Origin: Enterococcus silesiacus
GTDB taxonomy: Bacteria; Bacillota; Bacilli; Lactobacillales; Enterococcaceae
Assembly (NCBI GenBank): GCA_001465115.1
Contig: CP013614.1
Coordinates: 3,038,001 to 3,102,000 of the forward strand
Direction: 5' to 3'
Length of the DNA: 64,000 nucleotides
Shown here: positions 16,163 to 37,780 of the stretch, in pieces
Numbering within the stretch: the stretch's first letter is position 1
How the letters are laid out: each line of letters begins with the position of its first letter
Notes under the pieces: model-generated
Seen by the model: the letters and a program-made list of their open reading frames with translations, nothing else
Databases searched by the model: none
What the model was told of the DNA's origin: nothing
Position numbers and translations under genes: made by a program

Positions 16163-17149
16163 TTAAATCGTCGGATTTATGTTACTCAGGCTGATTTCTC
16201 CTGAAGAGAGTACTTTTTCTGTTTTGTCATGAAGTTGAACTATCAATTCGCCATGATCGTTGATAGCTGTGGCGATTCCTTCATAGTCGGTTCCCGCTTG
16301 TGTAAATGAAACTGTCTTGCCAAGTACAAAAGATTTTTGGCGGTATTCTTCTAAGAAAGCTTGTTCAGGGATTTGATTTAGTATAGTGTAAAATTGATTC
16401 CAAATTGCTCCAATCAATTCGTTTCTTGTAACAGTTGGTTCAGCTTCTGGAAATAGAGAGGTCGCTTTTTCTCTTATGTCCTTAGGGAATTCATTTTGTT
16501 TCACAGAAAAATTAATACCCATGCCGATAATAACATTTGAGATTTGCCCAGATTCAACATCACTCATGGCTTCTGATAAAATACCGCAGACTTTTTTTCC
16601 GTTGAGATAGATGTCGTTGACCCATTTAATCTCGGTTTGGACCTTGATCAAATCATCCATTGCACGAGTGATTGCGACAGCCATGATTACAGTATATTGC
16701 GCCATTTCCTCGAAATTTTGATTAGGCCTTAATAGCATGCTCATGTAGATACCGCTGCCAGCTTTTGAAAAGAAAGGACGGCCAAATCGTCCTTTTGGGG
16801 CTTCTTGGATATCTGCTACGATCAATGTGTTATTTGGTTCACCGTTGATTGCTGCTAGCTTAGCGTCTTTCATTGTAGACTCTGAGGAGTTTAAAACCGT
16901 GATTGAAAGATTAGGCGTTGCCGGCTCTAAAGCCAAACGAATCCCCTCTGCGGATAAAACATCTGATTTATCATAGCAGTATCCTTTGTTGCGGCTGCTG
17001 GAAATAATGTGTCCTTCTTTTTTTAATTCATTGATTGCTTTCCAAATGGCAGTTCGAGATAAAGAAAGTTTCTGCGCCATTTCTTCACCTGAAATAAACG
17101 CTGGTGCTTGTTTCATTAATAAGGTTAACACCTGGCTTTTTGTAGACAT
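16163..17149 (-). CDS. birA: BirA, biotin-protein ligase and biotin repressor
   Basis: BirA attaches biotin to acetyl-CoA carboxylase and, in the bifunctional form, represses biotin uptake genes. The 328-aa protein is the long type. An N-terminal HTH_11 winged helix (SGEEMAQKLSLSRTAIWKAINELKKEGH, residues 17-46) is followed by the ligase domain with the biotinyl-AMP loop GRFGRPFFS (GRGRRG-like), KWVNDIYLNGKKVCGIL and the C-terminal SH3-like domain. The HTH implies a regulatory role. It is a single gene; TAAAGGAGCGGATGTT lies before the ATG. Confidence 0.93.
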   Translation of the reverse strand: MSTKSQVLTLLMKQAPAFISGEEMAQKLSLSRTAIWKAINELKKEGHIISSSRNKGYCYDKSDVLSAEGIRLALEPATPNLSITVLNSSESTMKDAKLAAINGEPNNTLIVADIQEAPKGRFGRPFFSKAGSGIYMSMLLRPNQNFEEMAQYTVIMAVAITRAMDDLIKVQTEIKWVNDIYLNGKKVCGILSEAMSDVESGQISNVIIGMGINFSVKQNEFPKDIREKATSLFPEAEPTVTRNELIGAIWNQFYTILNQIPEQAFLEEYRQKSFVLGKTVSFTQAGTDYEGIATAINDHGELIVQLHDKTEKVLSSGEISLSNINPTI

Positions 17150-17333
17150 AACATCCGCTCCTTTATAGTAATTTCATTGTAGCTGATGAATAGAGCGAGG
17201 GTCAACCACAATACGACTGGAAGAGGAGGGGAAAATCCTTCTTAGGATGTATGATTTCTTTTGAGAAACTTGTTATACTTGTGTGGTAGGAATGAACGAT
17301 GATCGTTAGAATTAGAGAGATGGAGTGGGAAAT

Positions 17334-17546
17334 ATGGAAAAGCAACAATACGTTTGTGATAAATGTGGCAACATGCATTATATATCAGATCAGTTTCAAG
17401 CCACAGGAGGAAACTTTTCAAAGATCTTTGATATTCAAAATAAAAAATTTATCACAGTCAGCTGTACGAGATGCGGATTTACGGAATTATACCGTGGGCA
17501 AACATCAGATGGTTGGAATGTTTTAGACTTTTTAATGGGTGGTTAA
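17334..17546 (+). CDS. Small zinc-ribbon protein
   Basis: This 70-aa protein has two CxxC knuckles, YVCDKCGNM near the N-terminus and VSCTRCGFTEL in the second half, enough for one zinc ribbon. It matches the widespread small nucleic-acid-binding-like family (zinc_ribbon_13 type) of unknown role in Firmicutes. The ATG at 17334 follows GGAG by eight bases; a GTG at 17325 would overlap the ribosome binding site. It stands alone and is followed by a strong terminator. Confidence 0.8.
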   Translation: MEKQQYVCDKCGNMHYISDQFQATGGNFSKIFDIQNKKFITVSCTRCGFTELYRGQTSDGWNVLDFLMGG

Positions 17547-17565
17547 TAACTGCTTAAATAAATGA

Positions 17566-17612
17566 AAAGAAGGTGAGGCAAAAGTATTTTTTACTTTTGC
17601 CTCACCTTCTTT
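17566..17612. terminator. Bidirectional terminator after the zinc-ribbon gene
   Basis: A 21-bp perfect stem (AAAGAAGGTGAGGCAAAAGTA and complement) with a T-only loop and T run serves the convergent zinc-ribbon gene and ABC operon. Confidence 0.9.
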
Positions 17613-17616
17613 GTGT

Positions 17617-18423
17617 TTAAACTAATAATAGTTGATCGTCTTTTAATTCAGCGCCGCTATTTTGATGGAACATTTCCATCAATTCATTAACAGTTAAATC
17701 TTTTTTCTGATCAGCAGGTACATCTACCACGACTTGCCCTTGATGAAGCATGATCAGGCGATTGCCGTAACGAATCGCATCTTCCATGTCATGTGTCACC
17801 ATAAATGCGGTTAAATTTTGTTCCTGAATCAATTTTTCAGTCAGTTCCATGACCGTGATCGATGTTTTAGGGTCAAGTGCTGCGGTATGTTCGTCTAATA
17901 AAATCAACTCGGGACGAATCAAGGTAGCCATGAGTAACGTGATTGCCTGACGTTGTCCACCAGATAACAAACCGATTTCCGCGCCTAGACGATTCTCTAG
18001 TCCTAAATTCAAACTAGCTAATTGTTCTTTGAAGAAACTACGGTCATTTTTGCGAACACCATTTCCTAAACCACGTTTTTTCCCTCGTTTCATGGCTAGA
18101 GCCATGTTTTCTTCTACAGTTAAACGAACAGCAGTCCCCATCTTAGGATCTTGGAACACGCGGCTGATTTGTTTTGAGCGGGCGACAACACGTTGCTTGG
18201 TGATATCTTTGTTATTTAAGGTTAGGTGACCTTCTTCAATAGGTAAAGTACCAGCTATGCTATTGAGTAAAGTAGACTTTCCGGCACCATTACCGCCGAT
18301 GATCGTAATGAATTCACCTTGGTTGATCGTCAAATCAATGCCTTTTAGCACATGATTTTCGTTGACTGTGCCGCGTTCGAAATAGTGATGTAAGTTTTTA
18401 ATTGTTAGTACAGGCTGCATCAA
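17617..18423 (-). CDS. ABC importer ATP-binding protein (Trp/Tyr-type system)
   Basis: This 268-aa ATPase has Walker A GGNGAGKSTLL near residue 43, Q-loop, signature LSGGQRQAITL, Walker B LILLDEHTAAL and the switch His in VTHD. It is the third gene of the permease and lipoprotein operon and its start overlaps the permease stop by 4 bp, which suggests translational coupling. The family pairs with PF04392-type binding proteins and single permeases in systems annotated as tryptophan/tyrosine transporters (TrpXYZ-like). Substrate is inferred from that family and from the Tyr/Phe leader peptide upstream of the operon. Confidence 0.88.
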   Translation of the reverse strand: MMQPVLTIKNLHHYFERGTVNENHVLKGIDLTINQGEFITIIGGNGAGKSTLLNSIAGTLPIEEGHLTLNNKDITKQRVVARSKQISRVFQDPKMGTAVRLTVEENMALAMKRGKKRGLGNGVRKNDRSFFKEQLASLNLGLENRLGAEIGLLSGGQRQAITLLMATLIRPELILLDEHTAALDPKTSITVMELTEKLIQEQNLTAFMVTHDMEDAIRYGNRLIMLHQGQVVVDVPADQKKDLTVNELMEMFHQNSGAELKDDQLLLV

Positions 18424-19370
18424 TTTATCCCTCCTTTACGTTTTCTTAGTTTAGAAAAGCCTAATTTTTTTTGAATCAGTGGTGAAGATAGACAGATGAC
18501 TAAAATGATTGCTGAAAATAATTTTAAATCAGCTGGATCAACACGCAGTTCTAAGACACAGGCAAGAATAAAGCGGTAAAGAATGGCTCCGATCACGATC
18601 GTGATTAGGCGTAGGCCAAGTGATTTATTTTTAAAGAGAACTTCTGCGATGATGATTGAAGCAAGTCCGATCACGATCGTTCCGATACCAGAATTCAAAT
18701 CAGCGAAGTTGTTGTTTTGAACAAGTAAAGCACCGGATAAAGCAATACAACCGTTAGAAAGCATATAGCCAATAATTTTCATATTGTCCGTTTTGATCCC
18801 GTTGGCTTCACTCATATCAAGGTTGTCTCCAGTTGCCCGTGTTGCTAATCCAATTTCTGTTTTAAAGAATAAGACAAGTAGGACGATGACTAACAGTACG
18901 ATGATCAAACCAACGAGGATAGTACTGTTGATTTTAGTCAATCCTAGTGACTGAGCATGAGAGAAAATCGAATCGGTACCGATCAAAGAAATATTTGGAG
19001 CGCCCATGATACGTGAGTTGATGCTATAAAGACCCGTCATAGTGATGATCCCTGCTAACAAAGCGGGGATTTTTAATTTTGTGTGTAAAAGTCCGGACAC
19101 AAGACCTGCCAACATACCAGCAATAAAAGCAATGATCAATGCCACGATCGGCGCTATCATATAATGAATGTCAAATAAGGACTGGAGCGGTGTGGGCCAA
19201 GTAGTAGGATCTTTTGCTAAAATAACTGCGGCTACAGCGCCACCTAAAGGAAAGCTCCCTTCAGTGGTCAAGTCCGCAATATCTAAAATACGGTAAGTGA
19301 GAAAGACTCCAATGGCGAGTAAGGACCAAAGAAGACCTTGAGAGGTTGAGGATAGTAATATGTCTAACAA
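18420..19370 (-). CDS. ABC importer permease (Trp/Tyr-type system)
   Basis: This 316-aa membrane protein has about eight to ten hydrophobic helices and the branched-chain permease fold (BPD_transp_2). ADLTTEGSFPLGGAVAAVIL near residues 33-52 is the conserved motif of this subgroup, and EANGIKTDNMKIIGYMLSNG is the cytoplasmic coupling loop. It is the middle gene of the importer operon, 81 bp downstream of the binding-protein gene, and overlaps the ATPase gene by 4 bp. Confidence 0.88.
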   Translation of the reverse strand: MLDILLSSTSQGLLWSLLAIGVFLTYRILDIADLTTEGSFPLGGAVAAVILAKDPTTWPTPLQSLFDIHYMIAPIVALIIAFIAGMLAGLVSGLLHTKLKIPALLAGIITMTGLYSINSRIMGAPNISLIGTDSIFSHAQSLGLTKINSTILVGLIIVLLVIVLLVLFFKTEIGLATRATGDNLDMSEANGIKTDNMKIIGYMLSNGCIALSGALLVQNNNFADLNSGIGTIVIGLASIIIAEVLFKNKSLGLRLITIVIGAILYRFILACVLELRVDPADLKLFSAIILVICLSSPLIQKKLGFSKLRKRKGGIN

Positions 19371-19451
19371 TAAAATCAGCTTCTTTCAATAATATTTATG
19401 TAGAGGTTGAGAAAAAAGTGAGTTACTTTTTTCTCAACGTTTATTTAGGAA

Positions 19452-20429
19452 TTAAGGTGCCTTGATAGCATCAGGATCGATATCTAGTGCTTGTGCCATC
19501 TCTTTGTTTACGAACAGCTCTAAATCTTTCGCTTTTTCAACAGGCATGTCCTCTGGTTTTGCTTCGCCTTTTAGAATTTTTGCGGCCATTGCGCCAGTTT
19601 GTTTACCTAGTGATTTATAATCGATTCCCACAGTTGCTAGACCGCCTTCTTCGACTTGTTCAATCGAACCTGCGATAACAGGAGTTTTGTGTTCTTTCGC
19701 TACCTCACCGATAACAGCCGCCGCAGAAGCAAACGTATTGTCTGTTGGGATATAGATTGCGTCAACATCTTTCGCTAAACTTGTAGTAACCTGTTGCACA
19801 TCGTTTGTTGAATTAGCTGTCAGAACTTTGGTTTTGACCCCGGCCTCTTTCAACGCTTTTTCAGCCATATCTGCTTGGATTTTAGAATTTGCTTCACCAG
19901 CGTTATACATAATACCGACTGTTTTTGCATCGGGGACGATCGTCAATAATAAATCAATCTGTTTATCGATCGGTACAATATCGGTTGTTCCAGTTACGTT
20001 ACCGCCAGGCTTTTCATCGGATTGAACTAATTTAGCGCTGACTAAGTCAGTAACGGCTGTAACTAAAATTGGAATATCAGTTGTTTCATTCAATAATGAT
20101 TGAGCAGCAGGTGTTGCGATACCTAATAACAAGTCTGGTTTTTCTTTGACCAATTTTTCGCTCATGCTTTTTAGTTGAGCTTGATCATTTTGGGCATTGC
20201 TGTATTCGATTGTTAGGTTTTCGCCATCTTTGAAGCCATTATCTGCTAAACCTTCTTTAAAGCCTTCAAAAGCAGCATCTAATGAGCCGTGTTGGACGGG
20301 CTGTAAAACACCGATTTTCTTGTTGTCACTGTTTGATCCATCGTTTGCTTCTTTGCTATTGCCGCACGCGCCAAGTGTTAATAGTGCGACTGCTGATATA
20401 ATACTTAGTCCTACTAGTTTCTTTTTCAT
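19452..20429 (-). CDS. ABC importer substrate-binding lipoprotein (Trp/Tyr-type, PF04392-like)
   Basis: This 325-aa lipoprotein has signal peptide and lipobox LTLGAC, and then the periplasmic-binding fold seen in TrpX-like proteins. It starts IGVLQPVQHGSLDAAFEGFKEGL, and contains LLLGIATPAAQSLLNETTDIPILVTAVTDLVSAKLV and AVDAIYIPTDNTFASA-like stretches. It is the first gene of the operon. AATTGGAGGAATCAAG lies before the ATG. A 5' leader of almost 300 nt with a short peptide gene and a terminator precedes it, so expression is probably set by attenuation. Aromatic amino acids are the likely ligands, inferred from family and leader. Confidence 0.87.
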   Translation of the reverse strand: MKKKLVGLSIISAVALLTLGACGNSKEANDGSNSDNKKIGVLQPVQHGSLDAAFEGFKEGLADNGFKDGENLTIEYSNAQNDQAQLKSMSEKLVKEKPDLLLGIATPAAQSLLNETTDIPILVTAVTDLVSAKLVQSDEKPGGNVTGTTDIVPIDKQIDLLLTIVPDAKTVGIMYNAGEANSKIQADMAEKALKEAGVKTKVLTANSTNDVQQVTTSLAKDVDAIYIPTDNTFASAAAVIGEVAKEHKTPVIAGSIEQVEEGGLATVGIDYKSLGKQTGAMAAKILKGEAKPEDMPVEKAKDLELFVNKEMAQALDIDPDAIKAP

Positions 20430-20455
20430 CTTGATTCCTCCAATTATAGTTGATA

Positions 20456-20494
20456 AAACAAAAAATCCATTCAGACAATATGCCTAAATGGATT
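20456..20494 (-). terminator. Attenuator terminator in the ABC importer leader
   Basis: Read on the minus strand, AATCCATTTAG and CTGAATGGATT form an 11-bp stem (one G-T pair) followed by TTTTTTGTTTT. It lies only about 30 bases upstream of the lipoprotein ATG, inside its own leader, so it must be conditional. Confidence 0.85.
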
Positions 20495-20613
20495 GATAAA
20501 AGTCGTAGGTAAACACTTCTTTATTCGCCACTTAGGATTGTCTACGTGGCTGTTTGTTCAATACAAAGCGCTCTAGCCATCATAGATACAAAAACAGGTT
20601 TTTGCTGTTTGTA
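20464..20613 (-). promoter_or_regulatory. Antiterminator and competing hairpins of the ABC importer leader
   Basis: Minus strand. GACAATCCTAAGTGG (complement of 20528-20542) pairs almost perfectly with CCATTTAGG..ATTGTC (complement of 20474-20491), which contains the left arm of the terminator, so the two structures exclude each other. The same antiterminator arm is partly occupied by the hairpin GCCAC/GTGGC (20527-20531 with 20546-20550). Further upstream CTGTTTTTGTA (20587-20597) can pair with TACAAACAG (20605-20613) or with AACAAACAG (20550-20558). These are visible complementarities; the switching order is inferred. Confidence 0.65.
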
Positions 20614-20636
20614 CCCACGATTGCATGAATACAAAA

Positions 20637-20693
20637 CTATCTAAAGTAGCTAAAGTAAGCTTTATTCAGTTGTGGGTTGATTGAGTGTGTCAT
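20637..20693 (-). CDS. Leader peptide with Tyr/Phe control codons
   Basis: This 18-codon reading frame encodes MTHSINPQLNKAYFSYFR and has a perfect ribosome binding site (GGAGGG, six bases before the ATG). Codons 13, 14, 16 and 17 are TAC TTT TAC TTT, near the end of the peptide as in classical attenuators such as pheA. It lies right behind a strong promoter and before a chain of alternative hairpins ending in a terminator ahead of the ABC importer. The expected role is to sense charged tRNA-Tyr and tRNA-Phe through ribosome stalling. It is too short for ordinary gene finders. The function is inferred from the arrangement. Confidence 0.7.
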   Translation of the reverse strand: MTHSINPQLNKAYFSYFR

Positions 20694-20723
20694 AAAAATC
20701 CCTCCGCAAATTGAATTGTGTTT

Positions 20724-20753
20724 AGTATAAAGGAAAGATGAGTCTGCTGTCAA
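20724..20753 (-). promoter_or_regulatory. Promoter of the ABC importer operon
   Basis: On the minus strand TTGACA (complement of 20748-20753) and TATACT (complement of 20724-20729) are spaced by 18 bp. Transcription would start near 20717, just ahead of the leader peptide ribosome binding site. Confidence 0.8.
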
Positions 20754-20941
20754 CAGATTATTTTAAATTTTCTGAACATTTGTATAATAGAGTTAAAGGA
20801 AAATGCATAAAGGTAGAAAAACTTTGTGATTTTTTTAAGTTGATGCGGATAAAATACGTAACGATGGATATCTTTGTGAAATTTTATGGGTTCATGATAT
20901 TATTTAATTAAAGTAAATAGTCAATAATTAGGAGGATGTAT

Positions 20942-21514
20942 ATGATTTCGAAAAAATTGATCACATTAGGAACACTAGCAGCAACAGTATTGGTATTAGG
21001 TGCATGTAATAGTGATAATAAAGCTTCTAAAGATAGCTCATCTGATAGTAAAACAGAAACATCAATGAGCTCAAGTGTTGATGCAGTAAGTGGAGCTTCC
21101 ATCAGCGATAAACCAGAAGTAATCGAAAAAGCGTTGAGCAAAGATGGAAACTGGATCGTTGCTGCAACAGCAGATCTGACTTTTGATAAAGATGTGACTG
21201 TTTCCGGTGAGTTCCACGACAAAGGCGAAAAATCAGGTGACATTTATAGAAAATTAGCATTATACGCACAAGACTCCGATAAAAAAGTTACGGCTGAATA
21301 TACAGTAACCGTTCCTCAATTGATCGTTGAAACAGAAAACTTCAATATTGTTAACGGAACTGTTAAAGGAGATATCTTGGTTAAAGCGAATGGCTTTGTT
21401 TTAAACGGAACAAAAGTTGATGGTAAGGTAACGTTTGAAAAAGAAGAATACAAAACTTCTGCAACTCTTGACAAAGAAGGCGCTGAAGTAACTGGTGACG
21501 TGACTGTTCAGTAG
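20942..21514 (+). CDS. Lipoprotein of unknown function, bactofilin-like repeats possible
   Basis: This 190-aa lipoprotein begins with signal peptide and lipobox VLGAC, then a short Ser/Asp/Lys linker. The rest is rich in short beta strands (NFNIVNGTVKGDILVKANGFVLNGTKVDGKVTFEK), a rhythm reminiscent of right-handed beta-helix or polymer-forming cytoskeletal folds, with an Ig-like stretch before it (KDVTVSGEFHDKG). I do not recognise a defined family and no function is assigned. The ATG at 20942 follows GGAGG by six bases; an upstream in-frame ATG at 20936 overlaps it. It is a single gene with its own terminator, directly upstream of the rpoB promoter. Confidence 0.75.
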   Translation: MISKKLITLGTLAATVLVLGACNSDNKASKDSSSDSKTETSMSSSVDAVSGASISDKPEVIEKALSKDGNWIVAATADLTFDKDVTVSGEFHDKGEKSGDIYRKLALYAQDSDKKVTAEYTVTVPQLIVETENFNIVNGTVKGDILVKANGFVLNGTKVDGKVTFEKEEYKTSATLDKEGAEVTGDVTVQ

Positions 21515-21539
21515 ACTTGTTGCGTCAAAAAAGGAAGGA

Positions 21540-21569
21540 GACACTCAATTTTTATTGAGTGTCTTTTTT
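21540..21569 (+). terminator. Terminator after the lipoprotein gene
   Basis: A perfect 10-bp stem GACACTCAAT / ATTGAGTGTC with a TTTT loop is followed by six T. Confidence 0.9.
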
Positions 21570-21604
21570 GAAGAGTTTGAGTCTTTTTAAATGCCCAAAA
21601 ACCC

Positions 21605-21633
21605 TTGACTTTTACTATAGAAGGTAGTACAAT
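21605..21633 (+). promoter_or_regulatory. rpoB promoter
   Basis: TTGACT (21605-21610) and TACAAT (21628-21633) with a 17-bp spacer form a near-consensus sigma-A promoter. It leaves an untranslated leader of about 240 nt before rpoB, in which I see A/T-rich stretches but no convincing riboswitch or terminator. Confidence 0.8.
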
Positions 21634-21878
21634 ATATAGATGCAAAAACTATCTGAAAAATGACAAAGCAGGAGCGAAATATTGTCCGTTCCGGTTTTTA
21701 ATAGGGAAACAAAAGTAGAAACGCACGAGAAATTTTCAAGAGCACATTCTATTTTTGGTTTTTTTTTGCCTAAAAACTGCAAAAAATGCTCAATATTACA
21801 GATATTTAATATTTGTAATGTTAAAGAAATATTTTCGGTTAGTGTTTTGATAGACTTTTAATTAGAGGAGTGAAGAGC

Positions 21879-24800
21879 TTGGCTGGACACGTAGTAAAAT
21901 ACGGAAAACACCGCGAACGTAGAAGTTTCGCCCGGATCAGTGAAGTGTTGGAATTACCCAACTTGATCGAGATTCAAACAGACTCTTACCAATGGTTTTT
22001 AGATGAAGGACTAAGAGAAATGTTTGAGGACATTTTACCGATCGACGATTTTCAAGGGAATTTATCTTTGGAATTTGTGGATTATGAATTAAAAGAACCT
22101 AAGTATACGGTAGAAGAAGCGCGCGCGCATGACGCAAACTATTCTGCACCGCTACATGTTACTCTACGATTGACAAACCGTGAATCTGGAGAAATCAAAT
22201 CACAAGAAGTATTCTTCGGTGATTTCCCTCTAATGACTGAAATGGGAACATTTATCATCAATGGTGCAGAACGAGTTATCGTTTCTCAATTAGTACGTTC
22301 ACCAGGTGTTTATTTCCATGGAAAAGTAGATAAAAATGGTAAAGAAGGCTTTGGCTCAACAGTGATCCCTAACCGTGGCGCATGGTTAGAAATGGAAACT
22401 GACGCAAAAGACATCTCTTACGTACGTATCGACCGTACACGTAAAATTCCTTTGACTGTATTAGTTCGTGCTTTAGGTTTTGGCTCTGATGATACAATTT
22501 TTGAAATTTTCGGTGAAACACTAAGCTTACGTAATACAATCGAAAAAGATTTACACAAAAATGCGAGCGATTCTCGTACCGAAGAAGGCTTAAAAGACAT
22601 CTATGAGCGTCTACGACCTGGCGAACCAAAAACAGCTGACAGTTCTCGTAACTTGCTAAACGCTCGTTTCTTCGATCCAAAACGCTATGACTTAGCGAAC
22701 GTTGGTCGTTACAAAGTCAACAAAAAATTAGATTTAAAAACACGTCTATTGAACCTAACTTTAGGAGAAACCTTGATCGATGCTGAAACTGGCGAAATCA
22801 TTGTTGAAAAAGGAACGGTATTAACTCACCAAGTAATGGAAACCTTAGGTGAACATATCGATAATGGCTTAAATAGCGTAACGTATTACCCAAGTGAAGA
22901 TGGTGTGGTTACTGAACCAATGACGGTTCAAGTAATCAAAGTTCTTTCTCCAAAAGATCCAGAACGCATCGTTAACGTAATCGGTAATGGCTACCCAGAT
23001 ACAAGTGTGAAGACTGTTCGTCCTGCGGATGTCGTAGCTTCAATGAGTTATTTCTTTAACTTACAAGAAGACATCGGTAACGTAGATGATATCGATCACT
23101 TAGGTAACCGTCGTATTCGTTCAGTTGGTGAATTACTACAAAACCAATTCCGTATCGGTTTAGCTCGTATGGAACGTGTGGTTCGTGAAAGAATGTCGAT
23201 CCAAGACACTGAAACATTGACACCACAACAATTGATCAATATTCGTCCTGTTGTTGCAAGTATCAAAGAATTCTTTGGTTCTTCTCAGTTATCACAGTTC
23301 ATGGATCAAACAAATCCTCTAGGTGAGTTGACACACAAACGTCGTCTATCTGCCTTAGGACCTGGTGGTTTGACTCGTGACCGTGCCGGCTATGAAGTTC
23401 GAGATGTTCACTATTCCCATTATGGTCGTATGTGTCCGATCGAAACCCCTGAGGGACCAAATATTGGGTTGATCAATAGCTTGTCAAGTTATGCCAAAGT
23501 TAACAAATTTGGGTTTATCGAAACACCTTATCGTCGTGTTGATCGTGCAACAGGAAAAGTAACCGATCAAGTGGATTACTTAACTGCTGACACAGAGGAT
23601 CACTACATCGTAGCGCAAGCAAACTCACGCTTAAATGAAGATGGCTCATTCGCTGAAGAATTAGTAATGGCTCGTCTGCAAAGTGAGAACCTTGAAGTAA
23701 CGATCGATAGAGTCGATTACATGGACGTTTCACCTAAACAGGTAGTTGCAGTTGCGACTGCATGTATTCCTTTCTTGGAAAACGATGACTCCAACCGTGC
23801 CTTGATGGGTGCCAACATGCAACGTCAAGCCGTGCCTTTGATCCAACCTCGTTCACCACTTGTGGGAACGGGTATGGAATACAAATCAGCACATGACTCA
23901 GGTGCCGCTTTACTATGTAAACATGATGGTGTCGTTGAATATGTGGATGCATCAGAAGTACGCGTTCGCCGTGACAATGGCGCATTAGATAAATATATGG
24001 TCACAAAATTCCGTCGTTCAAATTCAGGAACAAGTTACAACCAACGTCCAATCGTTCTTTTAGGCGAAAAAGTTGAAAAAGGCGATACACTAGCAGATGG
24101 ACCTTCTATGGAAGAAGGCGAAATGGCGTTAGGACAAAACGTCCTTGTCGGATTCATGACATGGGAAGGGTATAACTACGAGGATGCGATCATCATGAGC
24201 CGTCGTTTGGTGAAAGATGATGTCTATACTTCTATCCATATTGAAGAATATGAATCAGAAGCTCGTGATACAAAATTAGGGCCTGAAGAAATCACGCGTG
24301 AAATTCCAAACGTCGGGGAAGATGCGTTGAAAGATCTTGACGAAATGGGCATTATCCGTATTGGTGCTGAAGTCAAAGATGGCGACCTATTAGTAGGTAA
24401 AGTAACGCCTAAAGGGGTAACTGAGTTATCTGCTGAAGAACGTTTACTACATGCAATCTTTGGTGAAAAAGCGCGTGAAGTTCGTGATACATCGCTACGT
24501 GTACCTCACGGTGGCGGCGGGATCGTTCATGATGTGAAAATCTTTACTCGTGAAGCCGGAGACGAATTATCTCCAGGCGTAAACATGTTAGTTCGTGTAT
24601 ATATTGTTCAAAAACGTAAAATCAACGAAGGCGATAAAATGGCCGGACGTCACGGTAATAAAGGGGTTGTATCCCGCATTATGCCGGAAGAAGATATGCC
24701 ATTCTTACCAGACGGTACACCAATTGATGTCATGTTGAACCCACTAGGGGTACCATCACGTATGAATATCGGACAAGTACTAGAATTACACTTGGGTATG

Positions 24801-37716: not shown

Positions 37717-37780
37717 ATGGTATTGTTTGCCCCACAATGAGCCCCGGAAACTCAAGTGAATGTCAAACATCGAATAGAAA
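37717..37780 (+). ncRNA. Probable L13 ribosomal leader
   Basis: The roughly 80-nt untranslated leader of rplM contains TGTTTGCCCCACAATGAG and CCCGGAAACTC followed by GAATGTCAAACA, able to fold into a compact structure (TGTTTG with CAAACA). Low-GC Gram-positives carry an L13 leader at this place that L13 is thought to bind for feedback control. I assign it by position and folding potential, not by a model match. Confidence 0.45.

Follow-up and report, generated by a model that had tools for sequence, protein, structure and literature searches.

On the minus strand of the window, by which we mean the whole 64,000-nucleotide stretch of Enterococcus silesiacus DNA analysed here, the three components of an ABC importer are encoded behind a leader that contains a promoter, a short open reading frame and an intrinsic terminator. 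The features of the locus are as follows.

20748-20753, minus strand: -35 hexamer TTGACA, of consensus sequence
20724-20729, minus strand: -10 hexamer TATACT, with an 18-base spacer to the -35 hexamer
20700-20707, minus strand: ribosome binding site (Shine-Dalgarno sequence, SD) GCGGAGGG of the leader ORF
20637-20693, minus strand: leader ORF MTHSINPQLNKAYFSYFR followed by a stop, 18 codons; all 150 readable copies keep this frame and its aromatic tract
20643-20657, minus strand: control codons UAC UUU AGC UAC UUU (Tyr Phe Ser Tyr Phe)
20637-20655, minus strand: segment 1, the end of the ORF; pairing partner c (covariation and duplex energies)
20624-20636, minus strand: segment a, directly 3' of the stop; pairing partner b (covariation and duplex energies)
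20607-20619, minus strand: segment b; pairing partners a or c (covariation and duplex energies)
20571-20594, minus strand: segment c; pairing partners 1, b or 3a (covariation and duplex energies)
20541-20552, minus strand: segment 3a (CAGCCACGUAGA); pairing partners c or 3b (covariation and swap test)
20527-20542, minus strand: segment 3b (GACAAUCCUAAGUGGC); pairing partners 3a or the left arm and loop of the terminator (antiterminator)
20464-20494, minus strand: intrinsic terminator stem-loop, then TTTTGTTTT; U-rich tract at 20455-20463
20450-20653, minus strand: match to RF02863 (sRNA_2410) in an Rfam search, whole model covered
19452-20429, minus strand: substrate-binding lipoprotein, PF04392, TrpX-like, with its ATG at 20429 and Tyr271 at the Tyr279/Gln284 selectivity position
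18420-19370, minus strand: ABC permease, PF02653 (domain match)
17617-18423, minus strand: ABC ATPase, PF00005 (domain match)

The original prediction had described a promoter, an 18-codon frame with its SD sequence and a terminator, and all of these are present on the minus strand at, or a few bases away from, where it had put them. The promoter has 11 of 12 consensus bases and ranks first among 18 promoter-like sites in 17000-22500, an interval whose shuffles average 14.6 such sites, and so is exceptional in quality only. The proposed antiterminator arm GACAATCCTAAGTGG (20528-20542) is indeed complementary to the left arm and loop of the terminator. Tyr and Phe codons had been said to alternate at positions 13-17; codons 13, 14, 16 and 17 do specify Tyr or Phe, but codon 15 is Ser, so that the description was almost right. 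Folding of the leader RNA likewise bore out the expectation of structure: the 288-nt leader is more stable than its dinucleotide shuffles by 3.8 standard deviations, and 0 of 200 shuffles was as stable.

Other structured elements were seen in the window. Adjoining the 3' end of the ATPase gene, 17566-17612 reads on either strand as a hairpin of 20 or more pairs that resembles a terminator. The L13_leader family (RF00555) is matched on the plus strand at 37719-37773 with 46.6 bits, and Lacto-rpoB (RF01709) at 21658-21712, 5' of an rpoB-like ORF, with 43.3 bits.

Identity and distribution of the element

The leader matches the Rfam family RF02863, 'Enterococcus sRNA 2410', at 134.7 bits against a gathering score of 61. 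Rfam gives this family the type 'Gene; sRNA', and its model begins within the leader ORF. According to the accessible text of the paper that reported it, the E. faecium RNA of the family was a 195-nt RNA-seq candidate, for which a Northern blot showed two transcripts (PMC5593968); that RF02863 includes a discrete short RNA is thus an experimental fact. The same accessible text assigns it neither a function in cis nor a leader peptide or a set of regulated genes downstream, and the strings 'attenuat' and 'leader' are absent from it.

At E<=0.001, 101 of 105 Enterococcaceae genomes contain RF02863, 95 of them with a score above the cut-off, and two or more copies per genome are common. A Lactobacillales sample, own family included, has matches in 215 of 395 genomes at E 0.001 (99 over the cut-off; 52 of 80 genera), and a class-level sample in 27 of 299 genomes, of which 5 lie outside the order; 0 of 14 control genomes had a match. 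The genome of the window holds two copies, the second scoring 56.1 bits, under the gathering score. Five genomes of one genus, g3 (G002, G006, G007, G012 and G014), have 5-6 matches each, and the copies fetched from this genus stand before importer paralogues and, apart from these, before aro genes; the regulon there looks dispersed. The leader-peptide reading of the original prediction gains support from the comparisons below, but the element is no local oddity, being found across the order and already filed in Rfam as an sRNA. In a survey of mainly open-access literature, judged by titles and the beginnings of abstracts, we found no earlier report of this leader and no experiment on its regulation.

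The comparisons use 151 Lactobacillales copies, comprising 111 from the family (among the matches listed) and a further 40, picked by hand for spread, from elsewhere in the order; L112-L115 of the order-level search are repeats and were left out. One copy with an unread base (L050) is excluded from codon, folding and segment counts, one at a contig end (L157) from terminator, folding and downstream counts, and two in which the script did not locate the hairpin or the c motif (L094, L148) from the segment tests.

Conservation of the leader peptide

All 151 copies have an ATG leader ORF, and in 117 its last six residues are YFSYFR; the remainder are aromatic variants (FFSFFR, YFSFFR), short extensions beyond the usual stop, and the one unreadable copy. 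In every one of the 150 readable copies, the best SD sequence upstream belongs to an ATG whose frame runs without a stop into the aromatic tract, at an ATG-to-tract distance of 33-69 nt that changes in steps of 3; the two alternative frames each contain a stop in 149 copies. The four control positions are Tyr or Phe in 149, 148, 150 and 150 of the 150 leaders, and the final Arg is kept in 146. We looked for relatives in which the hairpins stay and the frame or its Tyr and Phe codons are lost, the outcome that the original prediction had named as contrary to it, and found all 150 in frame. Part of the conservation of YFSYFR is expected from RNA pairing alone. Judged by this comparison, the conservation of the frame is what translation predicts, and not what a chance frame over a structured RNA would be expected to give.

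Conservation of the leader also extends upstream of the control codons. Within at most 7 codons before the control tract, 130 of 150 leaders have Leu followed by Asn or His (L[N/H]). The Leu codon is CTG in 97, TTG in 22, CTA in 6 and TTA in 5, changes that are synonymous by construction because these leaders were picked by a pattern demanding Leu, and the codon after it is AAT in 126, CAT in 4 and AAC in 0. The 20 leaders that lack the motif include three (L026, L040, L042) with Ser or Pro replacing Leu. Plain codon starvation has no need of a conserved Leu-Asn before the tract, and its presence counts against the explanation that we otherwise find best.

It could be accommodated by an arrest peptide in the manner of TnaC: the QLNN..YFSYFR chain would itself stall the ribosome, in response to free Tyr or Phe or to slow release, and not through empty Tyr or Phe tRNA sites. 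The motif with its varied Leu codons and the retained Arg do extend conservation beyond the control codons, and Leu-Asn recurs in 12 of 32 leaders of a related tryptophan element described below. Against this, the synonymy at Leu is a product of selection by pattern, 20 leaders lack the motif, and the near-exclusive use of AAT points to a constraint at the level of RNA. Arrest induced by the product would also have the opposite sign to the induction by starvation that biosynthesis and import genes need, and in the tryptophan element the control codons switch to Trp along with the pathway. We regard arrest as the sole basis of control as improbable; selection on Leu-Asn/His may be mixed between the peptide and the RNA level, and the nascent chain may contribute to stalling.

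Competing helices between leader and terminator

A terminator was found in 150 of 151 copies, the exception being the copy at a contig end, and it lies 121-176 nt behind the leader stop (median 141, 150 copies). Between the two, six candidate helices can be drawn, namely 1:c, a:b, b:c, c:3a, 3a:3b and 3b:terminator, and helices with a segment in common are mutually exclusive. We scored them as three alternative structures in an 82-row alignment that leaves out rows longer than 235 nt or more than 88% alike. Pairs in which both sides have changed number 18 in the set 1:c, a:b and 3a:3b, where shuffles give 4.4; for a:b with c:3a there are 11 such pairs against 3.4, 9 of the 11 lying within a:b, and for b:c with 3a:3b there are 8 against 2.9. 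For each structure the observed count was reached by 0 of 500 shuffles, controls that leave shared ancestry in, and 94.8-96.6% of cells are paired in the three structures against 29-48% in slid controls. Helix by helix, double-changed pairs number 9 of 12 in a:b, 6 of 15 in 1:c, 5 of 12 in b:c, 3 of 5 in 3a:3b and 2 of 11 in c:3a, so that support for the middle of the putative relay comes chiefly from complementarity that hardly varies (c:3a has 95.0% of its cells paired).

The antiterminator, 3b:terminator, was tested separately because its register differs. Double-changed cells number 9 against a shuffle maximum of 5 in the 49 rows from importer loci, and 9 against 7 in the 33 other rows; counted as pairs, there are 2 in the importer rows, a number reached by 72 of 500 shuffles, and 6 in the other rows, reached by 1 shuffle. 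Duplexes of 3b with the terminator come to -12.05 kcal/mol for cognate partners against -8.57 for swapped ones, and the cognate is the stronger in 138 of 147 copies. In the same swap test the cognate is better in 138 of 147 copies for a:b and in 94 of 147, with little contrast, for c:3a. For b:c the test had a single usable row, because c hardly varies, and this row went against b:c; the helix is favoured by its covariation count and by energies. Duplexes of -8 kcal/mol or lower form for a:b and 1:c in 147 of 147 copies and for b:c in 146. The alternative hairpins of the original prediction thus find support in helices that covary, thinly for c:3a and for the importer antiterminator, but the wiring looks longer than the attenuator, antiterminator and terminator that it had envisaged.

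Ribosome positions were modelled by masking bases in partition functions of transcripts that end before the right arm of the terminator, an equilibrium model. With a mask at the first Tyr codon, 89 of 149 copies gain more than 0.1 in the probability of 3b:terminator and 2 lose; with a mask at the stop 47 gain and 13 lose, and with a control mask on the N-terminal codons, which thus also acts, 53 gain and 24 lose. For the window copy the antiterminator probability is 0.34 without a mask and 0.61 when the first Tyr is masked, but also 0.56 when the stop is, with 0.27 in the control; stall and stop are barely separated, and the model does not turn the stop state off. The second copy of the genome (L002) gives 0.18 unmasked, 0.88 in the stall, 0.83 at the stop and 0.87 in the control. 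On average, therefore, the folding model appears to support the expected sign, without itself showing how the stop state stays off.

Genes behind the element

The first gene behind the element encodes a homologue of the importer binding protein in 98 of 150 copies. The classes of first gene tested include aroE, aroF, aroC, aroK-like and pheA-like genes. NCBIfam was applied to part of the other 52, L138 excepted, the rest being classed by resemblance to the aroE of the window's genome; its cut-offs were exceeded for DAHP synthase and chorismate synthase, shikimate kinase and prephenate dehydratase were best matches that fell short of theirs, and there was no match at the threshold used for the first gene of L110. 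By these sequence assignments, the named first genes other than the importer are aromatic-pathway genes.

The second copy in the window's genome, with the leader MTTMKHNQLQLNNYYFSYFR followed by a stop, stands before eight genes on the same strand, aroE-aroF-aroB-aroC-tyrA-aroA-aroK-pheA, the aroK being under its NCBIfam cut-off. As annotated, this row is a path to Phe and Tyr, and it is a candidate co-transcribed unit.

Outside the order, eight weak matches in the 5 genomes stand before DAHP synthase (three), prephenate dehydratase (two), and a TrpX-like binding protein, a sodium-dependent transporter and transketolase (one each); one first gene of each kind was classed by NCBIfam and repeats by eye, and the script listed leader frames for 5 of the 8, those of L201, L205 and L208 being read by eye. 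Two of these eight have leaders of some individual interest. In L204 the leader MFRIISTNIWYSYRR, with Trp and Tyr codons, precedes the transporter, a member of the SNF family, and may represent a further codon swap; in L202 a leader ending in QLNRYYYFGWFS precedes transketolase, the source of the shikimate-pathway precursor erythrose 4-phosphate.

These genomic contexts bear directly on the possibility that the element is what Rfam calls it, a small RNA gene whose product, the terminated leader, acts in trans on other mRNAs, with the ORF and the position before an importer secondary. The type assigned by Rfam and the discrete bands on the Northern blot (PMC5593968, accessible text) would be natural under such a function. 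Yet an importer protein follows 98 of 150 copies and the other classified first genes belong to aromatic amino-acid metabolism, the frame bears the marks of translation, and the antiterminator pairing follows the terminator; a trans-acting function as the main role appears very unlikely to us, though a side role of this kind is conceivable.

Substrate of the importer and a tryptophan sister element

The window binding protein scores 339.5 bits against the TrpX equivalog NF041285, below its cut-off of 390, and named close relatives of it are found in Enterococcus ureilyticus, E. crotali, E. plantarum, E. ureasiticus, E. termitis, E. moraviensis and E. caccae. It is closer to the Tyr binder CD0873 (266.6 bits) than to the Trp binder SP1069 (217.6), and the reverse holds for the protein behind the Trp leader of the same genome (206.1 against 323.3 bits). 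As described in the accessible part of PMC6816091, crystal structures exist of CD0873 with Tyr, VC_1101 with Phe and SP1069 with Trp, and selectivity lies at two positions, one with Glu263 or Ala and one with Tyr279 in the Tyr/Phe binders or Gln284 in the Trp binder. Transferred by alignment, using the 16-residue spacing between them, these positions are Ser255 and Tyr271 in the window protein, which has no Gln of the SP1069 type. All 98 proteins behind Tyr/Phe leaders carry Tyr at the second position, and all 31 behind Trp leaders carry Gln there, although the two types are two paralogous groups and the counts are not independent events; at the first position the 98 have mostly Ser (88), with Ala in 6, Phe in 2, and Trp and Glu once each. 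The suggestion that the transporter carries tyrosine and/or phenylalanine is therefore backed by the pocket residue and also by CD0873, the nearest relative with a solved structure, which has tyrosine bound, and the agreement of control codons with predicted pocket supports Tyr and/or Phe as the probable substrate.

The Trp leaders belong to a second family, RF04312, 'trpB ncRNA motif', to which the window element itself gives a weak cross-match (32.9 bits, gathering 59). RF04312 matches 104 of 105 genomes of the family at E 0.001, some of the weak matches being cross-matches to RF02863 copies, and is over its cut-off in 42. Two Trp codons stand in the leader of all 32 fetched loci, SWQNWRR being one example; a TrpX-like binding protein follows in 31 and trpB in 1. 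Like the Tyr/Phe element, this sister has a leader peptide, a:b and b:c alternatives and a terminator; unlike it, it uses Trp codons, and its terminator lies a median of 97 nt behind the stop against 141, with some RF04312 terminators mis-picked. Direct pairing of c with the terminator arm, at a median of -8.6 kcal/mol, is suggested only, and 1 of the 32 loci (L116) is without the c motif. The sister in the window's own genome (L168, G000:C1:834047-834155) lies outside the window and has the leader MNRLSKPISELNNSWQNWRR before a Trp-type binding protein. A T-box match is found about 1.7 kb from it on the opposite strand.

The replacement of Tyr and Phe codons by Trp codons in the sister also bears on a sensor of the riboswitch or T-box type, in which the RNA would bind tRNA or the free amino acid and the ORF would be incidental. 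An RNA structure conserved over the order is what such a sensor would leave, T-boxes are common in the genome (26 matches, 19 over the cut-off, none within the window), and a T-box controls trpX in Streptococcus suis (PMC9382623, accessible part). The original prediction had reported T-box motifs to be absent, and the searches agree: no T-box match reaches the gathering score in the window, none appears even at E<=1 in 20350-20850, Rfam finds neither a T-box (RF00230) nor a known riboswitch at the locus, and ten related loci give none of either at the gathering score. With the frame kept in 150 of 150 copies and its ATG distance varying in steps of 3, we attach very little probability to such a sensor.

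Proposed mechanism of attenuation

Taken together, these comparisons make it quite probable that the element is a ribosome-mediated transcription attenuator that senses tyrosine and/or phenylalanine. Comparison among copies speaks for the reading frame and its codons, for the terminator and the genes behind it, and for most of the helices, less well for c:3a and the importer-type antiterminator; from these we infer where transcription starts, that the ribosome stalls for want of charged tRNA, in what order the helices fold and how the element responds to the amino acids, as follows. The transcript would begin near 20717, and the 18-codon leader peptide would be translated. Were Tyr- or Phe-tRNA scarce, the ribosome would stall at codons 13-17 and mask segment 1; a:b could then form and leave c free to pair with 3a, and 3b, thereby released, would pair with the left arm of the terminator, so that RNA polymerase would continue into the importer genes (on). 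Were Tyr and Phe plentiful, a ribosome at the stop would mask a and allow b:c to form, and once the ribosome was released from the leader 1:c would form; in either event c would be occupied, 3a:3b and the terminator would fold, and a short RNA of about 260 nt would be released (off), which would be Rfam's sRNA_2410. The parity of this chain of helices gives the right sign for biosynthesis and import.

The competing helices covary, suggesting a relay longer than that of a textbook attenuator. The original prediction had contained neither the Rfam identity nor helices 1:c, a:b, b:c and c:3a, the second copy before aroE or the Trp sister. A bolder version, which we put forward as doubtful though conceivable, is a regulon-wide aromatic relay attenuator in Bacilli, built of six neighbour-competing helices, in which the long relay would buy time for a loosely coupled ribosome and the QLNN..YFSYFR nascent chain would add to the stall.

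Relation to known systems and significance

The trp, pheA and his attenuators of Proteobacteria combine a leader peptide with control codons, alternative helices, an intrinsic terminator and cognate genes downstream. The Tyr/Phe element would work like them, and those of their sequence-level hallmarks that were tested were found in it. It differs in belonging to another bacterial group and in having the extra segments 3a and 3b before the terminator, which account for the distance of the terminator from the stop.

Among Firmicutes, leader-peptide attenuators have been predicted for histidine, in few lineages, and T-boxes have been reported for histidine regulation in Lactobacillales (PMC2965389, PMC9413887, accessible parts). 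The predicted histidine leaders are likewise Gram-positive leader-peptide attenuators and differ in the amino acid. The importer homologue trpXYZ of S. suis is under a T-box (PMC9382623, accessible part); it shares with the present locus transcription attenuation by amino-acid supply, but its sensor is a tRNA-binding RNA and not a translated leader. The nearest known system is RF02863 itself, the same RNA family as the window element, which differs in being filed as an sRNA gene.

If the attenuator reading is true, an element that Rfam lists as an 'sRNA' would turn out to control a Tyr/Phe regulon in cis across Lactobacillales, and in a few further Bacilli, where T-boxes would be expected. Importer substrates would then be assignable from control codons and could be checked independently by the binding pocket. 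The coupling of transcription to translation in Firmicutes is debated, and the relay segments would offer a concrete, mutable prediction of how ribosome-mediated attenuation can work in these bacteria.
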